Assembly (NCBI RefSeq): GCF_003337735.1 | Contig: NZ_QPJY01000006.1 | Location: forward strand, 93,005 to 157,004 | From: Thioalbus denitrificans | GTDB lineage: Bacteria > Pseudomonadota > Gammaproteobacteria > DSM-26407 | Direction: 5' to 3' | Length of the DNA stretch: 64,000 nt | Shown here: piece after piece, positions 5,032-34,260 of the stretch | Numbering within the stretch: position 1 is the first letter of the stretch | Layout of the letters: the number at the start of each line of letters is the position of its first letter | Notes under the pieces: generated by a model | The model's input: only the letters and a program-made list of their open reading frames with translations | The model's database searches: none | Told to the model about the DNA's origin: nothing | Translations under genes and position numbers: made by a program

Positions 5032-5320
5032 TCACCACGAAAAATCTTCACCACGAAGACACGGAGGTCACGAAGAAAGACAGAAAGACAGAAAAGAAAT
5101 AATTAACCGCAGATCGGCGCTGATTTTCGTTGATTAGACGGTACAGGCCAATGCAACCTGTAGCCGGGCGGGTCGCCAGTCATGGGCGGCGTACGCTCCC
5201 GGTGAAGCGCCCCCCGCCTATCCAGGGCCTACGCAAAATCAACGTCAATCAACGCCAATCTGCGGTTAACCGTTTTTCTTCTTTCAGTCGCCTTCGTGTT
5301 CTTCGTGCCTTCGTGGTGGA
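5032..5320. repeat. Nested palindromic repeat R1 (CACGAAGG arms outside, CGCAGAT arms inside)
   Basis: This element fills the 325-base gap between the DUF4124 gene and the dienelactone hydrolase. Outer arms are imperfect tandem CACGAAGG-type units at about 5049-5078, answered by their reverse complement at about 5291-5317. Inner arms start AACCGCAGATC at 5104 and end in CAATCTGCGGTT near 5269. The roughly 100-base core (about 5136-5236) is nearly the reverse complement of the core of R2 (6595-6907), so R1 and R2 are inverted copies. No reading frame of substance is present. Confidence 0.85.
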
Positions 5321-22363: not shown

Positions 22364-22602
22364 AATTCACCACGAAGGCACGGAGGACACGAAGAAAAAC
22401 CGAAGAAACTTTAATCGACAGGATTTACAGGATTTTTCAGGATGGACAGGATTGTGTTGGATGCTGTGGATGGGCGGCTCGCCTGAACCATGCGTCTCCC
22501 CAACAAACCAAGTCACTCTTCCCGCCTCTCTCCGTGTCCTTCGTGCCTTCGTGGTGAATCTTTTTTCCATGGCTGTCCATCCTGTAAATCCTGTCTATTA
22601 AA
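22364..22602. repeat. Nested repeat R4 (CACGAAGG and ACAGGATT arms)
   Basis: Located between pilR and thiO, whose 3' ends converge here. Left CACGAAGG arm about 22369-22395, ACAGGATT-type arm about 22417-22450, a core, right arm CCTTCGTGCCTTCGTGGTG about 22538-22556, and closing AATCCTGTCTATT about 22588-22600. The core is the reverse complement of the R3 units at 16.3-16.6 kb. Confidence 0.85.
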
Positions 22603-23833: not shown

Positions 23834-24030
23834 TCACCACGAAGGCACGAAGGACACGAAGAAGAACAGAAAGAACCTGAATGGACAGGATTCACAGGAT
23901 TACTCTGAACACAGTTGGTGGGCAGGCCACGATCCACCAGGGTTTCCTGCAACAAATCAAGTCAATCTTCGCGCCCTTCTTCGTGCCCTTCGTGCCTTCG
24001 TGGTGAAAATGAATCGTGCCTTCGTTGTGA
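23834..24030. repeat. Nested repeat R5 (CACGAAGG and ACAGGATT arms)
   Basis: This element occupies half of the 420-base gap between thiO and fimT. Left CACGAAGG arm about 23836-23865, ACAGGATTCACAGGATT at about 23883-23900, core, then a right arm CCTTCGTGCCTTCGTGGTG at about 23985-24006 and a degenerate extra arm to 24030. The core is of the same subfamily as R3 and R4. The remaining 85 bases before fimT hold no convincing sigma-54 site. Confidence 0.85.
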
Positions 24031-24114: not shown

Positions 24115-24678
24115 ATGGAACGGCAGTCGGGCTTCACCCTGCAGGAACTGATCATCACCCTCGCCCTCGGTGCGGTACTGGTCACCGTCGTCGTACCCGC
24201 CTTCTCCCATGTGGCCAGCACCAACCGCAGCGCCGCGGCCGTCAACGAGCTGCTCACGGCGCTCCAGCTGGCGCGCAGCACGGCCATCACCCGGGCGGTA
24301 CCGGTGACCCTGTGCCGGGGCGCCACCCGCTGCGGCGATGCCGGCTGGAGCGAGGGCTGGCGCCTGTTCAGCGACGTGGACGGCGACCGGCTCCTGGAGC
24401 CGGGCGACGGCGACCGCCTGATCCGGGTCGGGGAGGCACCGGCCCCCGACTACACCCTGAGCTGGCGCGCCTTCGGCTCCAATGACTATATTCAGTTCAC
24501 CCCCGAGGGACGCACCCGGGGCCAGAACGGGACCTTCCGCTTCTGCCCCCGGAACGGCGAGGACCGCTACGCCCGCGGGATCATCGTCCACCGGACGGGA
24601 CGCGCCAGGGTCAGCCGGGACAACGACGGCGACACCCTGCACGAGGACGCCCGGGGGCGCCCCCTCGGCTGCTCCTGA
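24115..24678 (+). CDS. fimT: GspH/FimT-family type IV minor pilin (FimT position)
   Basis: A 187-residue pilin-like protein with a short leader MERQSG cut before F in GFTLQELIITLALGAVL, the prepilin peptidase site with Glu at +5 followed by a hydrophobic assembly helix. The C-terminal domain has cysteines at CRGATRC and FRFCP and ends GCS, consistent with disulfide-stabilised GspH/FimT domains. DVDGDRLLEPGDGDR is an acidic, calcium-loop-like stretch. It is the first gene of the minor pilin operon; family members have been linked to DNA uptake. The order relative to fimU supports the symbol, but the two paralogues are hard to separate by sequence. Confidence 0.85.
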   Translation: MERQSGFTLQELIITLALGAVLVTVVVPAFSHVASTNRSAAAVNELLTALQLARSTAITRAVPVTLCRGATRCGDAGWSEGWRLFSDVDGDRLLEPGDGDRLIRVGEAPAPDYTLSWRAFGSNDYIQFTPEGRTRGQNGTFRFCPRNGEDRYARGIIVHRTGRARVSRDNDGDTLHEDARGRPLGCS

Positions 24679-24755
24679 ATGCCGTTCATCGGTTCGCCGC
24701 CACCACCCGTCGGGCCATCCGTGACAGGAACAACAACCTGATCTAAGTAGATAAC

Positions 24756-25259
24756 ATGAAAAGAAATCCGGGCTTTTCCCTCATCGAGATGATGATAGCG
24801 CTGGTGGTGCTGGCCGTGCTGATTACCATCGCCGTGCCGGGGTTCCGCAGCTTCATCCTCAACAACCGGCTGACAACCCAGGCCAACGAGTTCATCACCG
24901 CGCTGCAGGTGGCCCGGAGCGAGGCCATCAAGCGCGGCGGGGTGGTGGTCAGGATCACGGCCACCGCGCCCGTCGCCGCCAATGAATGGGGCGGCGGCTG
25001 GAGCATCTGGCCCGACACCGACGATGACGGTGTACAGGATGCTGGCGAAGATACCATTCGCACCGCCGAGGCGTTCGCCGGCGGCAACACGCTCGACAGC
25101 GCGGGGAACATCACGGAATTCGTCTACCGTGGTGATGGCTCCATCAGCAGCGCCGACACCTTCACGCTGTGCGACAGCCGCACGGGAGAGACGGGACGCC
25201 GGATCATCGTGACCGCCAGCGGCCGTTCCGCGCTGAATCCCGAGTTCACCTGTCCCTGA
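24756..25259 (+). CDS. fimU: GspH/FimT-family type IV minor pilin (FimU position)
   Basis: A 167-residue pilin-like protein, MKRNPGFSLIEMMIALVVLAVL, with a prepilin peptidase site (PG/F, Glu at +5). The GspH-like globular domain has DTDDDGVQDAGED, an acidic repeat similar to that in the preceding gene, and one Cys pair (TLCDS and C-terminal TCP). It follows fimT by 77 bases and is 14 bases ahead of pilV. In Pseudomonas FimU is part of the priming complex that connects PilVWX-PilY1 to the pilus. The assignment rests on operon order. Confidence 0.85.
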   Translation: MKRNPGFSLIEMMIALVVLAVLITIAVPGFRSFILNNRLTTQANEFITALQVARSEAIKRGGVVVRITATAPVAANEWGGGWSIWPDTDDDGVQDAGEDTIRTAEAFAGGNTLDSAGNITEFVYRGDGSISSADTFTLCDSRTGETGRRIIVTASGRSALNPEFTCP

Positions 25260-25273
25260 GGAGTGACGGAAAG

Positions 25274-25771
25274 ATGATCGCCAGGTGCGCACAGAGCCCA
25301 GCCCCCATCCGCGGCGGCCACCGCCAGGCCGGCTTCACCATGATCGAAGTGCTGATCACCGTGCTGGTACTCTCCATCGGCCTGCTTGGCCTGGCCGCCC
25401 TGCAGGCGACCGGGCTCAAGGAGAGCCAGATGGCCTACATGCGATCCCAGGCCGTGCTGCTCGCCTACGACATGGCGGACCGGATTCGGGCCAATCCGTT
25501 TCAGGCGGCGAGCTATGTCTACGATTCCGCGAACTACCCCAACGCGCTTCCTGCGGGGGTCGCGGGAACGGACCTCACCGACTGGATCACCAACGAGCTG
25601 AACCTGTTGCCGGATGCAGCGGGCGAGATTACCAGCCCCTCGGCTGACAACTACACCATCACCATCCGCTGGAACGAGACCCGGGATCCGGCGGTGGTGG
25701 ACACCGACTGCCCCAATGACGATTCCGACGGCAAGGACCTGCAGTGCTACCAGCTGGAGGTGGCGCTATGA
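25274..25771 (+). CDS. pilV: Type IV pilus minor pilin PilV
   Basis: A 165-residue protein from ATG 25274, with GAGGAG upstream. The leader is longer (about 20 residues), then GFTMIEVLITVLVLSIGLLGLAAL, the classical PilV signature with Glu at +5 and the IGLLGLAALQ helix. The globular part contains MADRIRANP, typical of PilV. Two Cys near the C-terminus (DTDCPNDD and LQCYQ) probably form a disulfide. Its stop codon overlaps the pilW start (ATGA). It forms the priming core of the pilus with PilW and PilX. Confidence 0.9.
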   Translation: MIARCAQSPAPIRGGHRQAGFTMIEVLITVLVLSIGLLGLAALQATGLKESQMAYMRSQAVLLAYDMADRIRANPFQAASYVYDSANYPNALPAGVAGTDLTDWITNELNLLPDAAGEITSPSADNYTITIRWNETRDPAVVDTDCPNDDSDGKDLQCYQLEVAL

Positions 25772-26763
25772 AACGTCTGCTGCCCATTGAAGCCAACCAG
25801 CGCCAGGGCGGCGTGAGCCTGGTGGAGCTGATGGTGGCCGTGGTCATCGGCCTGGTGCTGCTGGCCGGCATCACCCAGCTCTATATCGGCAGCAAGCGCA
25901 GCTACACCGCGCTGGAGACCCTGGCCCGCCTGCAGGAGAACGGCCGCTACGCCATCGACATCCTCGCCCGGGATCTGCGCCGGGCGGGCTACTGGGGCGG
26001 CAACGCCGACATCTCCATGCCGGCCACCGCCGGCAGCGAGGGGCCCTACACCCCGCCGGACAACACCTGCAATACCGGCGACTCCACCTGGGGCCGGATG
26101 GTGGAGCGGCGGGTGTTCGGCATCGACCGCGAGAACAGCGGCGCCGGCTACGGGGCCTGCATCCCCGCGGCCGATCACCCCGCCGGCGATATCCTGGTCG
26201 CCCGCTACGCCTCCCCGACCGACGTGGACTTCACCGTGGCGGCCGAGTACAACGCGGGCACGGACGGCAACCGCCTCTACATGCGCTCCTCGCTGTTCGA
26301 GAGCCGCATCTTCATCGGCAGCAAGAATGGACAGGCGGACAACGCGGTGGCCAAGGAGCCCAACCGCGCCGCGGCCATGGTGGCCAACGCCTACTACATC
26401 AACGACTCGGTCCAGCAGTGCCGGGGCAACAGCGTGCCCGCCCTCTGGCGCGAGACCCTGGACGCCAGCGGGCGCCCCGTGGGCGAGGAACTCGCCGTGG
26501 GCGTGGAGCAGATCCAGGTGCAGTGGGGCGTGGACACCAACGGCAACAACTCGGTGAACCAGTACGTGAACGCCAACGCGGTGGCGGACTGGGACCAGGT
26601 CATCGCCGCCCGGGTCTGGGTGCTGATGCGCGGGGACTGCCCCGAGGGCGGTGCCGCGGATACCCGCACCTACAACATGGGCAACCTCGCCTACACCCCC
26701 AACGACGACTTCCGGCGCCAGCTCTACGTCACCACGGTGATGCTGCGCAACCCGAACTTCTGA
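25768..26763 (+). CDS. pilW: Type IV pilus minor pilin PilW
   Basis: A 331-residue protein, MKRLLPIEANQRQGGVSLVELMVAVVIGLVLL (shown in part). It has an atypical cut site, GG/VSLVE, with Glu at +5 and a long hydrophobic helix. The large globular domain contains LQENGRYAIDILARDLRRAGYWGG, the PilW hallmark. The start overlaps the pilV stop by four bases. The length is in the normal PilW range. It takes part in the minor pilin complex that initiates pilus assembly and presents PilY1. Confidence 0.92.
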   Translation: MKRLLPIEANQRQGGVSLVELMVAVVIGLVLLAGITQLYIGSKRSYTALETLARLQENGRYAIDILARDLRRAGYWGGNADISMPATAGSEGPYTPPDNTCNTGDSTWGRMVERRVFGIDRENSGAGYGACIPAADHPAGDILVARYASPTDVDFTVAAEYNAGTDGNRLYMRSSLFESRIFIGSKNGQADNAVAKEPNRAAAMVANAYYINDSVQQCRGNSVPALWRETLDASGRPVGEELAVGVEQIQVQWGVDTNGNNSVNQYVNANAVADWDQVIAARVWVLMRGDCPEGGAADTRTYNMGNLAYTPNDDFRRQLYVTTVMLRNPNF

Positions 26764-26774
26764 GGTGAGCGGCC

Positions 26775-27338
26775 ATGAAAACGCCCACGAACACATGCGA
26801 ATCCACCTGCCGGCACCAGGTCGGCGCGGTGCTGCCCGTCGCGCTCATCTTCCTGGTGATCCTGACCATCATCGGCGTCACGGCCATGAACACCTCGGTG
26901 CTGGACACCATGATGGCCAGCAACACCCAGTTCCAGACCCGCGCCCTGGGCGATGCCGAGGTGGTGCTGGTGGAGGGCGAGGACGACGTCGTGGCCATCA
27001 CGACCGATGCCGTACCGCTCGACTGGAACACCACGGGTGACTACTACTACGACGCCACCGCCACCTCCACCGAGACCATCGACCCCTCGGACTGGGACTG
27101 GACCTTCACCACCCAGACCGCGGCTGACGGCGCCAGCCTCTACGTCGTCCAGTACGGCGGCCGCGAGCCCATCCCGGGCAACACCGGCGGCTACGGCGGC
27201 AGCGTGGCCTACGGCGGGGCCGGCGGCGGGGCCGCGGGCTCCTACGTCTACGTCTTCCAGGTCACCACCCAGGCCGACTCCAGCCGCGGCGCGCGTCGCA
27301 TCGTGCAGTCCGTCTACGTCACCGATCAAGAGCCCTGA
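26775..27338 (+). CDS. pilX: Type IV pilus assembly protein PilX
   Basis: A 187-residue protein. It has no standard prepilin Glu+5 site at the start. Instead QVGAVLPVALIFLVILTIIGVTAMNTSVLDTMMASN follows a 15-residue leader (shown in part); this LxxALxFLxILTxxG pattern followed by Met/Asn-rich residues is the PilX signature. A Gly/Tyr-rich region (GGYGGSVAYGGAGGG) precedes the last strand. It starts 12 bases after pilW and is 22 bases ahead of pilY1. Glycine-rich low complexity of this size is not a usual PilX feature. Confidence 0.88.
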   Translation: MKTPTNTCESTCRHQVGAVLPVALIFLVILTIIGVTAMNTSVLDTMMASNTQFQTRALGDAEVVLVEGEDDVVAITTDAVPLDWNTTGDYYYDATATSTETIDPSDWDWTFTTQTAADGASLYVVQYGGREPIPGNTGGYGGSVAYGGAGGGAAGSYVYVFQVTTQADSSRGARRIVQSVYVTDQEP

Positions 27339-27359
27339 TCCGTTCAGGAGGGCAAGACC

Positions 27360-30300
27360 ATGAAACGCATCCATCGAATCCCCTACCTCAGGATCACCCT
27401 CCTGGTCGCCGCCCTGGGTGCAGCCGGCCTCTATGCCGCCGTGACGTTCAACCCCGCGACCCAGCCGTACCTGACGGTCTCGCCCTACACGCTGCAGAAC
27501 ACCAACCTGGCCGAGGGCGACACCCGGGCCTACCGGACCTGGTACGAAAACGGCGCCTGGCAGGGGGATCTCATCGAGTACGACATCGCCTCGACCGGCG
27601 CCCGCTACACCGACGTGGCGGTGGGCTACAGCCCGCCGGGCGTACCGGTGGACGGCGACACCGACGGCCACATCAACTGGAGCGTGCGCGCGGTCTTCGC
27701 CGCGGCCGAAGGCCAGACCGCCGACGGCACCACCTCCAATCCGCAGCAGTACGACGGCGTGCCCACCATCACCGACTACTGGATGGAGACGGCCGATGGC
27801 GGCGGCCGCAATATCTTCACCGTCAGCATCGGCAGCCAGGTGCCGTTCCTGTGGAACAACCTGAGCACGACCCAGCGGGCCGCTCTCGACAGCGGAGTGG
27901 CCACCACGGGCGCCTATGACAGCGACATCCTCAACTTCATCCGCGGCGATCGCAGCAACGAGTTCCCCGACGGCACCCTGCGTCGTCGCTACAGTCTGAT
28001 GGGCGACATCATCCGCTCCCAGCCGGTCTACGTGGCCAAGCCGGTGGCCAACTTCACCCTCCCCTATTACGCCGCCTACAAGACGGCCCAGGCCAGCCGG
28101 GCCGGCCGGGTCTTCGTGGGTTCCAATGACGGCATGGTCCACGCCTTCGACACCAGCGACGGCTCGGAGGCCTACGCCTACATCCCCTCCATGCTGATGC
28201 CGGAACTGCCGGCCCTGGCCGCACGCCCCTACACCCACAAATACTACGTGGACAGCGAGCTCTACGCCGGCGATGCCTGCCCCGGGACCTGCAGCAGCTC
28301 CAGCGCCTGGAAGACCTTCCTCACCGGAGGCCTCGGCGCCGGCGGCAAGGGCCTCTGGGCCCTGAACATCACCAACGCCGACTATGACACCTCGAAGGTG
28401 GTGTGGGAGCGGCTGGGCGACGAAGCCTCGCCGCCAACCGGCTACACGCCGTCCCACATGGGCCATATCTACAACCGGCCCCAGATCGCTCTGATGCCCA
28501 ACGGCAAGTGGTACGTGGTGACCGGCAACGGCTACGGCAGCACCAGCGGCGACGTGGTGCTCTACCTGTTCCCGCTCAACGGCGGAGACGAGGTCATCAC
28601 CCACGTGGTGGGCGCGGACACCGGCAATGGCCTTTCGGGCATCACCCTGGTGGACACCGACGGTGATTTCCGGGTGGAGACCGGCTATGCCGGCGACATC
28701 AAGGGCAACCTCTACAAGTTCACCTTCGGCGGCAGCGATGGCGACTCCAGTCCGACGGTAACGAACGCCACGCTCATCAACGTCGGCGTCGATCGGCCCA
28801 TCACCGTCTCCCCGGACGTGGGCCGGCACCCCAACGGCGGCTATTTCATCTACTTCGGCACCGGCAGCCTGCTGAGCAGCGCCGATGCCACCAATACCGC
28901 GACCCAGCGCATCTACGCCATCTGGGACAGCAAGCCGGGCGGCTCCTACCCCATCAGCGACAGCTGCGACACCGACGGCACCGTCGCCATCGAGGGCCCG
29001 CTGGTCTGCCAGACCCTGGGCGAGACCACATTCAGTGGAACCGCGGTGCGCTATGTCACCCAGGCCACGCCCAACTGGAGCAATCATTACGGCTGGCGCG
29101 TGGAACTGCCCGATTCGGGCGAACGGCTGCTGGGCAACCCGCAGCTGCGCGCCGAGCGGCTCCAGTTCATCACCACCAACACCGCGGTCGACGGCGTCGA
29201 CAGCTGGCTGATGGGTCTCGACTGGCTCTCCGGCAGTGACGGGGACTACCCGAAGGAGGTGATGTACGACCTCAACCAGGACGGCCTGCTGAACGACTCC
29301 GACAAGGTGGCCGTGGACCTGAACGGCAACGGGGTGACCACCGATCCCGAGGACGGCCTGTTCGCGCCCGTGGCCCTGAACCTCGGCGACGGCAACCTCT
29401 CCCAGCCCACCATCGCCCGCATCGGCGGCGGGGTGGACATCCACTACATCAACGGCCTGCGCCTGCCGGCCCCCGAGTCGAACTTCGGCCCGATCCTGGG
29501 CGGCCTCATCGATGTCACGACCGATACACCCTACGGCGGCATCACCACCCTGGCGTACGACAAGCTGGTGGACGACGGCCTGCAGGAGGTCTGCGACAGC
29601 TACAGCATGACCACCTGCCGGGGCAGCCCGGGCCAGCCGGTCAGCGGGCATGCCGGCGAAGGCTATGCCGGCGTCCCCGACGGACATGTGCACGGCTACG
29701 ACAAGGTGCACGGTACCCCGTACGTGGACTACCTGACCCTCGAACCCCGGCGCGGTCTGCCGCGGCTCGACGCCTACACGGGCGATGACGCCACGGTGGA
29801 CGACACCCTGGCCCGTCTCGACCGCCTCGGCGCCGCGAGCGGAAGCGAGGAGCCCTACGCCTCCGGCACCCACACCAGCGTCATCGATCCGGACCAGAAG
29901 TTCGTCGTGGTGCTCTCCAACGCGGATCTCTCCACCGGGCCGGCCCTCCAGATCGGTTGCCGCACCTGGAACGTCACCGAGTACCAGGACATGCTGCGGT
30001 ACCAACTGGAGACCCAGAACCGCACGCCGGCCGCATTGCAGGACACCTACCACGGCAACAAGACCCTGGTCTTCACGCTCAACAGCATCCGCGAGGACCA
30101 TGACGACGGCCTGCCGGCCGGGCAGTGCGCACCCGAGACCATCGCCAACGGCATCGAGAAGTCCGAGACGGCAACCATGCGGGTCCTGTTCTACAACCGG
30201 GTGGTGGAGGACCTCGCGATTCTCCCGACCCTGCCGCAGTGCGTCTGGGGCATCCACAAGTACGACGTGCGGTTCGACTACTCCACTTCCGGCTACATCG

Positions 30301-31154
30301 ACCCCGCCGTCAACGCCTTCGGCCATCTGACCCCGGCCCAGGAGAAGTCCTACACCGGCTACCGCTGGCGCAACGGGGCGCTGACCCTGCAGATGCTGGC
30401 CGTCAACAGCGACAACACGGCCGGCTATGTCCTGCAGCCGGCCACGGGCACCATCACCACCGGGTATGACAAGAAAGGCAACCCGATTACCGAAACCTTC
30501 ACCTACCTGCCGAAGGACAAGAACGGCGCCCGCGTGGGCGGCATCATCGCCAAGGCGGTCCGCTATGACGGCATCAACAGCAAGTTCGTCAATGACATGG
30601 CCACCAGCCAGAGCGGGCTGCTCTACGAGTCGAGCGTCTTCTTCGACTTCGGCGACTGGTTCAACTTCAAGACCGGCAGTGCCTCGCTCTACTGCTACGG
30701 CGCCTCCACCTTCCATTCGCGGCTGGTGCAGGAGGTGGTACAGGGGCTCGACTGGGGCCACTACACCCAGTTGACCGACATCTTCTTCACCGACGGTGTC
30801 CTCAACAGCCTCTACTACCAGTACCTGGATCTGGTGAACGCCGTGCAGGCCGCCACGACCGAGGAGGAGCAGCGGGATGCCCTGCAGAACCTGGCCGACT
30901 TCTTCGCCGACAATCCGGACGTGGGCGCCTACGACAAGCTGCGCAGCTGGCGTGGCCACAAGGTCTGGCACCAGGAGAACACCGGCAACGAGGGGCGCAT
31001 CCTGCCCATCGATCGCTCCGACTATACGGGCGGTGGCGGCACCGCCAGTGACGGCACGCCGGAGCAGGTGGACGACATCTCCCGCAACCTGACCCCGGTG
31101 CTCGGCCCGAACTTCATCACCGGCCGGCGCACCTGGATCGACCTGAGGCCGTGA
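27360..31154 (+). CDS. pilY1: PilY1-like pilus-tip protein with N-terminally placed propeller
   Basis: A large secreted protein of 1264 residues. The signal peptide lies at about 1-27. The PilC/PilY1 beta-propeller runs from about 214 to 640: GDIIRSQPVYV, GRVFVGSNDGMVHAFD, GGLGAGGKGLWALN, VTGNGYGSTSG, AGDIKGNLYKF, YFGTGSLL, SSWLM-type strand. A calcium-loop-like DLNQDGLLNDSD lies at about 638-649. About 600 residues follow that I cannot assign. In standard PilY1 the propeller is C-terminal, preceded by a von Willebrand A-type region; here only about 200 residues precede it and no MIDAS motif was seen. It sits after pilX as usual. Confidence 0.88.
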   Translation: MKRIHRIPYLRITLLVAALGAAGLYAAVTFNPATQPYLTVSPYTLQNTNLAEGDTRAYRTWYENGAWQGDLIEYDIASTGARYTDVAVGYSPPGVPVDGDTDGHINWSVRAVFAAAEGQTADGTTSNPQQYDGVPTITDYWMETADGGGRNIFTVSIGSQVPFLWNNLSTTQRAALDSGVATTGAYDSDILNFIRGDRSNEFPDGTLRRRYSLMGDIIRSQPVYVAKPVANFTLPYYAAYKTAQASRAGRVFVGSNDGMVHAFDTSDGSEAYAYIPSMLMPELPALAARPYTHKYYVDSELYAGDACPGTCSSSSAWKTFLTGGLGAGGKGLWALNITNADYDTSKVVWERLGDEASPPTGYTPSHMGHIYNRPQIALMPNGKWYVVTGNGYGSTSGDVVLYLFPLNGGDEVITHVVGADTGNGLSGITLVDTDGDFRVETGYAGDIKGNLYKFTFGGSDGDSSPTVTNATLINVGVDRPITVSPDVGRHPNGGYFIYFGTGSLLSSADATNTATQRIYAIWDSKPGGSYPISDSCDTDGTVAIEGPLVCQTLGETTFSGTAVRYVTQATPNWSNHYGWRVELPDSGERLLGNPQLRAERLQFITTNTAVDGVDSWLMGLDWLSGSDGDYPKEVMYDLNQDGLLNDSDKVAVDLNGNGVTTDPEDGLFAPVALNLGDGNLSQPTIARIGGGVDIHYINGLRLPAPESNFGPILGGLIDVTTDTPYGGITTLAYDKLVDDGLQEVCDSYSMTTCRGSPGQPVSGHAGEGYAGVPDGHVHGYDKVHGTPYVDYLTLEPRRGLPRLDAYTGDDATVDDTLARLDRLGAASGSEEPYASGTHTSVIDPDQKFVVVLSNADLSTGPALQIGCRTWNVTEYQDMLRYQLETQNRTPAALQDTYHGNKTLVFTLNSIREDHDDGLPAGQCAPETIANGIEKSETATMRVLFYNRVVEDLAILPTLPQCVWGIHKYDVRFDYSTSGYIDPAVNAFGHLTPAQEKSYTGYRWRNGALTLQMLAVNSDNTAGYVLQPATGTITTGYDKKGNPITETFTYLPKDKNGARVGGIIAKAVRYDGINSKFVNDMATSQSGLLYESSVFFDFGDWFNFKTGSASLYCYGASTFHSRLVQEVVQGLDWGHYTQLTDIFFTDGVLNSLYYQYLDLVNAVQAATTEEEQRDALQNLADFFADNPDVGAYDKLRSWRGHKVWHQENTGNEGRILPIDRSDYTGGGGTASDGTPEQVDDISRNLTPVLGPNFITGRRTWIDLRP

Positions 31155-31160
31155 GGCGAA

Positions 31161-31193
31161 GCGGCCGGCGCGCCCAAGCCGCGCGCCGGCCGC
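31161..31193 (+). other. Strong hairpin between pilY1 and pilE
   Basis: Perfect 12-bp inverted repeat GCGGCCGGCGCG / CGCGCCGGCCGC with a 9-base loop, six bases after the pilY1 stop. No T run follows, so it is more likely an RNA-stability or attenuation element than a full terminator. It may lower pilE expression or protect the upstream mRNA. Confidence 0.6.
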
Positions 31194-31235
31194 AGGCGGC
31201 CGCGGGACTGAACACAACGGGGACGAGAGCACACC

Positions 31236-31676
31236 ATGAACCTGCACACTCGCAATGTGACCCGGAGCGGGGAACGGGGTTTCACCCTCACCGAGCTGAT
31301 GATCGTGGTGGCCATCGTGGCCATCCTCGCCTCCATCATGCTGCCCGCCTACCAGGACCAGGTGCGCAAGAGCCGTCGGGCCGACGCCAAGGCGGCGCTG
31401 ACCGAACTGTCCGGGTTCATGGAGCGTTTCTACGCTTCCAACGGGCGCTATGACCAGGACGGCGCCGGCAACGCCGTGACCCTGCCCTTCACCCAGTCGC
31501 CCAAGGAAGGCCGCAAGTTCTACAACCTATCCGTCGCGACTGCCGCGAATACCTACACGCTGACAGCGGACCCCATCGCCGGCACGGGACAGGAGAACGA
31601 CGTCGCCGCGGGAGTCAGCTGTGATCCGCTGACCCTCGACCATTTGGGAGCCAAGACCCCGACCGGCTGCTGGTAG
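31236..31676 (+). CDS. pilE: Type IV minor pilin PilE
   Basis: A 146-residue pilin, MNLHTRNVTRSGERGFTLTELMIVVAIVAIL (shown in part), with a clean prepilin peptidase site RG/FTLTE and the standard hydrophobic helix. YQDQVRKSRRADAKAALTELSGFMERFYASNGRY is the PilE/type IVa pattern (shown in part). The C-terminal disulfide is likely formed by the Cys in GVSCDPL and the one in PTGCW. As last gene of the minor pilin cluster it corresponds to PilE rather than the major pilin PilA; a major-subunit role cannot be excluded from sequence alone. Confidence 0.88.
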   Translation: MNLHTRNVTRSGERGFTLTELMIVVAIVAILASIMLPAYQDQVRKSRRADAKAALTELSGFMERFYASNGRYDQDGAGNAVTLPFTQSPKEGRKFYNLSVATAANTYTLTADPIAGTGQENDVAAGVSCDPLTLDHLGAKTPTGCW

Positions 31677-32599: not shown

Positions 32600-32857
32600 T
32601 TATTAACCGCAGATTACGCTGATTCACGCAGATTTTCTGTCGACTCAAGGATTTCCGATCGGACATCCGGACCGTCCCGTTTCCGGTGGTTCGCGTTGGT
32701 CGGAGAAGCGTCCCGTTCCACCCTGTCGCCTGTGCGGCCACCGCAGCGCACCACTGGCAGTGGTTCTGTCAATCCATGCAAATCAACGTAATCTGCGGTT
32801 GATTCGCCTTTGTATCTTCCTTCTTCGTGTCCTCCGTGCCTTCGTGGTGAATATTCA
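32600..32857. repeat. Nested repeat R6 (CGCAGATT inner arms)
   Basis: First of three direct copies around the methyltransferase gene. Left inner arm AACCGCAGATTACGCTGATT from 32604, a core of about 150 bases with several imperfect palindromes, right inner arm AATCAACGTAATCTGCGGTT ending about 32802, then a right outer CACGAAGG arm in reverse complement to about 32853. The left outer arm is missing. Confidence 0.85.
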
Positions 32858-33058
32858 GTGTCTGCGCTGCGGCAGCAGCATTTGTCACCGGCTGCGGGAA
32901 AGCCCCATCGCCCCCGGGCGGGCCTCCCACAGGCTTCGCTCAGGTCACCGGGCCGGGAATCCTTGTGGGAGGCGCGCCCCCGCGGCGATTTGGGAAACAT
33001 CCGGTGGTTGTATGGAGGAGCGTGGTCGTGCCCATGGCGCCGCCAACGACTGAAAAGA
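32858..33058. other. Spacer between R6 and R7
   Basis: About 200 bases without a supported gene. It contains TGTGGGAGGCGCGCCCCC followed by GCGGCGATT, and, in the other orientation, GGCGGGCCTCCCACA. Together they form an imperfect inverted repeat resembling REP-type sequences of gammaproteobacteria. A related stretch CGCGCCCTCGCGGCGAT occurs near 41265-41281. Confidence 0.45.
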
Positions 33059-33333
33059 CTTATTAACCGCAGATTACGCTGATTTACGCAGATTTTCTGT
33101 CGACTCGGGGATTCCGGATCGGACATCCGTACCGCCCAGTTTCCGGTGAATCACCTCGGTCGTATAAGCGTCCCGGTCATCCCTGTCGTCGGCTCAACCA
33201 CTGCACTACAACACTCGTAGCGTTCTATTAATCCACGCAAATCAACGTAATCTGCGGTTGATTCGCTTTTTAAGTTTTTCTGCTTCGTGTCCTTCGTGCC
33301 TTCGTCGTGAATATTGCTTTCGTGGTGAATACT
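33059..33333. repeat. Nested repeat R7, direct copy of R6
   Basis: Same order and orientation as R6: TTATTAACCGCAGATTACG start, core beginning TTTTCTGTCGACTC as in R6, right inner arm AATCAACGTAATCTGCGGTT ending about 33260, right outer arm to about 33330. R6 and R7 share the beginning and end of the core and differ most in the middle. Confidence 0.85.
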
Positions 33334-33345
33334 CAGTTGGCGCCC

Positions 33346-33948
33346 CTATCGCACCGCCAGCGCCACGGTGTAGTCCCTGCCCTGCTTGACCTTGTCGTAG
33401 TTGCCGAACACCTCCCTGAAGCCGCGCTCGATGAAGCGGCGCAGGCCGGAGATGGTGACCACGTAGAAGCGTCCGCCGGGCTTGAGGTGTTCCCGGGCGT
33501 CGTGGAGGTAGAGGTAGAGCATCTCCTTGCCCACCTTGGCCGGCAGGTTGGAGACGATGAGATCGAAGCGGCGCCCGCCCACGGCGCTGAAGCCGTTGCT
33601 GAGGAAGGCCTCGCAATTGCCGATGCCGTTGACCCGCGCGTTGCGGGCGCTGTAGTCCACCGCCACGAAATCCTTGTCCACCAGGCAGGTGCTCCCCTGC
33701 GGGGCCAGGCGCGCCAGCGTCAGCCCCAGCACGCCGTAACCGCAGCCCACATCGAGGCAGTCATCCCCCTCGTTGACCTCGACGTGCTCCAGCAGCAGCC
33801 GCGAGCCGTCGTCCACCGCCCGCGGCGAGAACAGCCCCCAGGTGGTATGGAACGTCAGCGGCTGCCCCCGCAGGGTGTCGCTGAAGACGATGTCCCGGCG
33901 CAGGGAGTCGATGTAAGCCTTGTCGATTTTCTTGGTCGTTTCAGTCAT
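33346..33948 (-). CDS. Class I SAM-dependent methyltransferase (RsmC-like small MTase)
   Basis: A 200-residue Rossmann-fold methyltransferase. DCLDVGCGYGVLGLTLA is the SAM-binding motif I and CLVDKDFVAVDYSARN motif II. FDLIVSNLPAKVGKEM is motif IV, with NLP rather than the NPP(F/Y) of N-methylating RsmC/HemK enzymes. Upstream residues FHTTWGLFSPRAVDDGSRLLLEH (shown in part) resemble the RsmC C-terminal domain. This changed catalytic motif makes the substrate uncertain; RNA or a small molecule are both possible. The gene is flanked on both sides by direct copies of the same repeat element. Confidence 0.8.
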   Translation of the reverse strand: MTETTKKIDKAYIDSLRRDIVFSDTLRGQPLTFHTTWGLFSPRAVDDGSRLLLEHVEVNEGDDCLDVGCGYGVLGLTLARLAPQGSTCLVDKDFVAVDYSARNARVNGIGNCEAFLSNGFSAVGGRRFDLIVSNLPAKVGKEMLYLYLHDAREHLKPGGRFYVVTISGLRRFIERGFREVFGNYDKVKQGRDYTVALAVR

Positions 33949-34000
33949 ATGGATATCTCACCGGCCAGCCGCGGGTGACGGGCTCTGGGATCCAACAAAC

Positions 34001-34260
34001 GGATAAACCGCAGATTTACGTTGATTTACGCTGATTTTCATGTCGATTCCTGGATTCCCGGTCGGACAACCGGTCCACCCGCTCTCCGGCAGGTCGGGTT
34101 GATCACGAAGACACCCCGGTCTGCGCTGGCGGGTATTCAACCATGGCGCTGCAGCCCAGGCAGTGGTTTTCATAATCTGCGTGAATCAGCGTAATCTGCG
34201 GTTAATAAATTCTTTTCCGTCTTGTCCTTTCTTCGTGTCCTTCGTGCCTTCGTGGTGAAA
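34001..34260. repeat. Nested repeat R8, third direct copy
   Basis: This element fills the 317-base gap between the methyltransferase and the CoA ligase. Starts AAACCGCAGATTTACG, core with CGGACAACCGG palindrome in the same place where R6/R7 have CGGACATCCG, right inner arm AGCGTAATCTGCGGTT ending about 34203, right outer arm CTTCGTGTCCTTCGTG to 34260. It is more diverged from R6 and R7 than those are from each other. Confidence 0.8.

Follow-up and report, generated by a model that had tools for sequence, protein, structure and literature searches.

PilY1 is thought to be both a pilus-tip adhesin and a surface sensor, and its von Willebrand A (vWA) head is credited with mechanosensing. The 64,000-nucleotide stretch of Thioalbus denitrificans DNA analysed here (the window) encodes a PilY1 of 1264 amino acids (positions 27360-31154, forward strand), preceded by an AGGAGG ribosome-binding site. 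According to a sequence-only reading, its propeller runs from about residue 214 to about residue 640, ends with a calcium-like loop and is followed by a large part without a recognised domain, a domain order unlike that of canonical PilY1. From this order, the same reading proposed that the tip protein may have a different binding module, presented in a different orientation.

The surroundings of the gene are a textbook type IVa pilus cluster. The gene order is pilS, pilR, a ThiO-like gene, two GspH/FimT-type pilins, pilV, pilW, pilX, pilY1 and a PilE/ComP-like pilin, so that pilY1 is co-encoded with the minor pilins fimU-pilV-pilW-pilX and with pilE (Table 1). No second PilY1 was detected in the genome, which has 4.14 Mb and is 99.7% complete.

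Table 1. Features of the pilY1 locus, with residue numbers of the window PilY1 and positions in the window.
Feature	Residues	Position	Strand	Evidence
Minor pilin genes (two GspH/FimT/FimU, PilV, PilW, PilX), upstream of pilY1		24115..27338	+	Pfam/NCBIfam
Signal-peptide-like segment, MKRIHRIPYLRITLLVAALGAAGLYA	1-26	27360..27437	+	Sequence inspection; ORF and ribosome-binding site
Pre-propeller module	27-214	27438..28001	+	HMM from canonical PilY1 pre-propeller segments
PilY1 beta-propeller	214-651	27999..29312	+	PF05567, 3HX6, survey boundaries
Loop at the position of the canonical propeller calcium site, DTDGDFRVE	432-440	28653..28679	+	Aligned with 3HX6 and relatives
EF-hand-like loop at propeller end, DLNQDGLLNDSD	637-648	29268..29303	+	Sequence
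C-terminal module	696-1115	29445..30704	+	Relatives in several families; found alone in L149 and L150
Linker, helix-rich and Gly/Asp-rich, poorly conserved	1116-1242	30705..31085	+	Alignment with relatives
C-terminal tail ...LGPNFITGRRTWIDLRP, counterpart of the canonical GRxSWxxL tail	1243-1264	31086..31151	+	Tail comparison
PilE/ComP-like minor pilin, directly downstream of pilY1		31236..31676	+	PF16732

The propeller is that of a PilY1. PF05567 matches residues 214-541 (E 3.6e-50; 171.5 bits, for a gathering score of 28.1), and the structure of P. aeruginosa PilY1 (3HX6) matches residues 188-661 (E 1.8e-54); the propeller first proposed is confirmed and spans about residues 188-661. Pfam finds nothing else in the whole protein, DUF4114 included, and NCBIfam gives only NF040838 (Neisseria PilC, residues 254-591, E 4.4e-27), which falls well short of the 350-bit cut-off of this model. 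The calcium-site loop, with D432, D434, D436 and E440, aligns in 3HX6 with the loop that precedes the conserved YAGD, and its counterpart in a relative (L003) is DSDKDGFVD. Compared with the pattern Dx[DN]xDGxxD, the window loop is acidic at positions 1, 3, 5 and 9 and misses the Gly; the strict motif occurs in 19 of 57 canonical proteins. The calcium-like loop singled out earlier, DLNQDGLLNDSD, was placed correctly but is not a special feature, as a similar loop stands at the propeller end of 27 of the 57 canonical PilY1s.

To determine the usual domain order, 185 genomes of the class were searched with PF05567; 113 matched, and the domains were measured in about 100 of these loci. In the ordinary PilY1, a vWA domain is followed by a pre-propeller segment, the propeller and a short tail ending in GRxSW. 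The propeller starts at median residue 684, with a median of 65 residues beyond it. The window protein has instead a pre-propeller segment, the propeller, a module of about 500 residues and a GRxSW-like tail, so the unusual order noted at the outset is upheld by the survey. Besides the window, three of the surveyed loci (L019, L022 and L081) have this order, which makes four of about 100, and targeted searches added L003 (from a MAG labelled Ectothiorhodospiraceae), L020, L021, L024, L151 and L152. In one of these genomes (G263), the PilY1 is split into two overlapping frames (L020:7610-11469), a frameshift or sequencing error.

The vWA head was looked for with profiles built for this analysis, since the Pfam VWA models, which give no match to the heads of canonical PilY1s either, were rejected as a test. 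HMMs of the MIDAS region, each trained on half of the canonical proteins (cut-off E < 1e-3), recognised 46 of 57 canonical PilY1s when these were held out. None of nine vWA-less proteins was matched, including the window PilY1, where the canonical-trained HMM thus finds no N-terminal vWA with the MIDAS DxSxS. An HMM made only from canonical pre-propeller segments matches residues 47-218 of the window protein (E 1.5e-19) and every other vWA-less protein tested. On this sequence evidence, residues 1-214 are not a vWA domain, the fold that would have refuted the sequence-only reading; they are a hydrophobic leader plus the segment that canonical PilY1s carry after the vWA and before the propeller. 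It is the absence of the head, and not a swap of modules, that brings the propeller close to the N-terminus. No separate vWA head was found elsewhere in the genome by a search with the vWA-containing N-terminal region of the PilY1 of a congener (G001), a weak negative, as this search had no positive control.

In an unrooted tree of the propeller columns of 68 proteins, 11 vWA-less proteins fall on one side, with a branch support of 98, versus 57 canonical ones. The vWA-less PilY1s thus form a real subfamily; the tree, being unrooted, does not tell the ancestral state. The group includes two proteins, L023 and L025, that lack the vWA and most of the module and have a coiled-coil-like stretch instead; the module is therefore not indispensable in this clade, a point against the explanation preferred below. 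In both (L023:2092-4626 and L025:3773-6445), this stretch precedes the same GRxSW tail.

An artefact or a degenerate copy, truncated by the loss of its vWA and extended by read-through, could in principle give the same picture, and the congener G001 does have an ordinary vWA PilY1, as would be expected if the window copy were degenerate. Its gene (L026) adjoins pilX and is cut by the contig end. A single genus thus alternates between both architectures. The window-type architecture, however, recurs across several gammaproteobacterial families, with about 40% identity between independent genomes, and it belongs to one well-supported clade. Both the ORF and the operon are intact. An assembly error is excluded by the identical architecture in independent genomes, and a degenerate copy is extremely improbable in view of the conserved homologues, which refute it.

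The C-terminal tail bears on the orientation of the protein. PilY1s end in a tail with a Trp, usually within GRxSW, and the window protein ends in GRRTWIDLRP. Among 57 canonical PilY1s, 44 have a GRxSW-like tail and 56 have a Trp within the final 12 residues, as do nine of nine vWA-less proteins for this Trp. By chance, a GRxSW-like pattern is found in 0.035% of random internal 20-mers. In AlphaFold-Multimer models of the Myxococcus xanthus tip complex, a C-terminal strand of PilY1 joins the beta-sheet of PilX, and the N-terminal domain of PilY1 is outermost at the tip (PMC11046646; PMC13190605). By analogy, the GRxSW tail may be the element that docks on PilX. The docking strands published for M. 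xanthus (LQNVYELP and SKVLIYAP) are not the GRxSW motif itself, which counts against this assignment and against the explanation preferred below. Since the module follows the propeller and precedes the tail, which is predicted to dock on PilX, the polarity of the protein is probably unchanged. The different orientation that had been suggested is accordingly not supported, as the canonical type of tail is retained and the same docking on the minor pilins is probable.

What follows the propeller is a module with a conserved core. Over ten relatives, the conserved positions are H776, H778, D781, N854, C961-V962, R1004-N1005, A1007-L1008, G1086, L1088, E1090 and C1112 (window numbering). Insertions bring this core to about 400 residues in the window protein, against about 200 in its shortest relatives. 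Searches of Pfam, NCBIfam, PHROGs and PDB sequences gave no match to the core, either of the window protein or of its relatives, in line with the earlier description of a part without recognised domain. Hits of the module profile to ribosomal protein L11 in the PDB (E above 1) were discarded as noise, as were hits of other searches to Titin (E 3) and TRAM (E 0.074). AlphaFold2 models of residues 26-790 and 651-1264, made from a two-row alignment with L003, both had a mean pLDDT of about 28, the known propeller included. The comparison with relatives supports a conserved separate module and speaks against an extra part of a larger propeller, one of the two cases that had been named as fatal to the sequence-only reading.

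The module is rare. A search with its profile yields relatives in 9 of 369 genomes of the class and, in a phylum-wide draw, in 2 of 398 genomes besides the window's own; within one family (f153), it is found in 12 of 23 genomes. Plasmids searched with the C-terminal half gave no match. A wide occurrence in Burkholderiales, which had been expected, is not borne out by the class survey.

The conserved motif [DN]xHxH[x][YW]D, and the His, Asp, Asn and Glu residues that are invariant in the ten relatives, might point to an enzyme or a metal-binding domain that has surface polymers or minerals as its targets at the pilus tip. No enzyme family or PDB chain resembles the module, though, and such short motifs could be structural. 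A catalytic or metal-binding role is therefore rated as improbable.

The two matches of the phylum-wide draw, G481 and G397, both come from one small other class of the same phylum (48 genomes). In them, the module forms part of proteins that look secreted, 586 and 544 residues long, in which Pfam detects no propeller. Their genes occupy the slot of pilY1, in the order pilW, pilX, module gene and pilE/comP, and their C-terminal ends, TGRVSWRRVVNE and TGRINWKQIIED, keep a GRxSW-like tail. G481, a genome only 75% complete, has no PF05567 match at all, and G397 has one weak match, elsewhere than at the module locus. In the stand-alone module proteins (L149:6177-7937 and L150:5861-7495), two cysteine-histidine segments of the type CH[KI]...AHLG/AHMAH flank the module.

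Since the module with its tail can fill the pilY1 slot alone, the module probably carries the binding. The explanation that we prefer, and consider fairly probable, is that the window protein is a member of a vWA-less PilY1 subfamily, docked on PilX by its tail, in which the module has the surface-binding role held by the vWA in canonical PilY1. The tail would dock on PilX atop the minor-pilin complex, as in other PilY1s, and the docked PilY1 would prime pilus assembly and sit at the pilus tip. Lying in the chain between the propeller and the dock, the module would project sideways or form a stalk. The inserted module would carry the surface binding that the vWA has in canonical PilY1. It is plausible that the module takes over binding in this way, a role suggested by its position and by its exchange with the vWA. 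More tentatively, and with somewhat less than an even chance, the module may represent a novel sort of type IV pilus tip protein, an adhesin that is docked by a GRxSW tail independently of its chassis, standing behind the propeller in one PilY1 clade and replacing PilY1, without any propeller, in the pilY1 slot of some bacteria.

Alternatively, the module could be structural, lengthening or stiffening the stalk between the propeller and the minor pilins, with the propeller doing the binding. Its place between propeller and docking tail would suit such a function, as would the coiled-coil variants (L023 and L025), which have a helical spacer in the same place. The invariant polar residues H776, H778, D781, N854 and E1090 are nevertheless more like a site than like a spacer, and the stand-alone proteins have no propeller in need of support. 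A purely structural module is rather unlikely, and a binding module remains the preferred reading.

The window protein is a member of the PilY1 family by its propeller, its operon and its tail, and it is new in its architecture. It shares the propeller and the minor-pilin operon with P. aeruginosa PilY1 (3HX6; PF05567). In that protein, according to the literature, the head at the N-terminus is a vWA, and no large module follows the propeller. M. xanthus PilY1.1 and PilY1.2, with DUF4114, and the propeller-only clade 1.4c resemble it in having a conserved propeller without a vWA (PMC13190605). In these proteins, however, the variable part is N-terminal and the propeller lies towards the C-terminus; no post-propeller module has been described in them. 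The PilC proteins of Neisseria and Kingella have a homologous propeller, but their variable half is also N-terminal and their propeller C-terminal. The tip pilins PilB and PilC of Streptococcus sanguinis likewise carry exchangeable adhesive modules on a tip chassis (PMC11046646), although these are pilins onto which vWA or lectin domains have been grafted, without a propeller and with a different module.

A 2026 comparison of published PilY1s places the propeller at the C-terminus and recognises only vWFA and DUF4114 as additional domains, both of them N-terminal (PMC13190605). No description of a large post-propeller module, or of propeller-free proteins in the pilY1 slot, was found in the open-licence literature, and the vWA-less branch is small and apparently undescribed. 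The headless clade and the propeller-free slot proteins offer a natural experiment that separates the roles of the vWA, the propeller and the docking tail. The conservation of the tail points to a general plug with which the pilus tip can be fitted with different modules.

Two further observations concern the DNA around the gene. On the reverse strand, an open frame of 1507 codons (window 26724-31247), to which no family is assigned, lies antisense to pilX and pilY1 and is probably a by-product of the high G+C codon usage. An intergenic repeat, CACGAAGGCACGAAGGACACGAAG, occurs in 17 copies on both strands between positions 5052 and 62829 of the window (at most 3 mismatches; 0 expected), for example at 22371-22394, 23979-24002 and 32823-34254, and several copies flank the ThiO-like gene.
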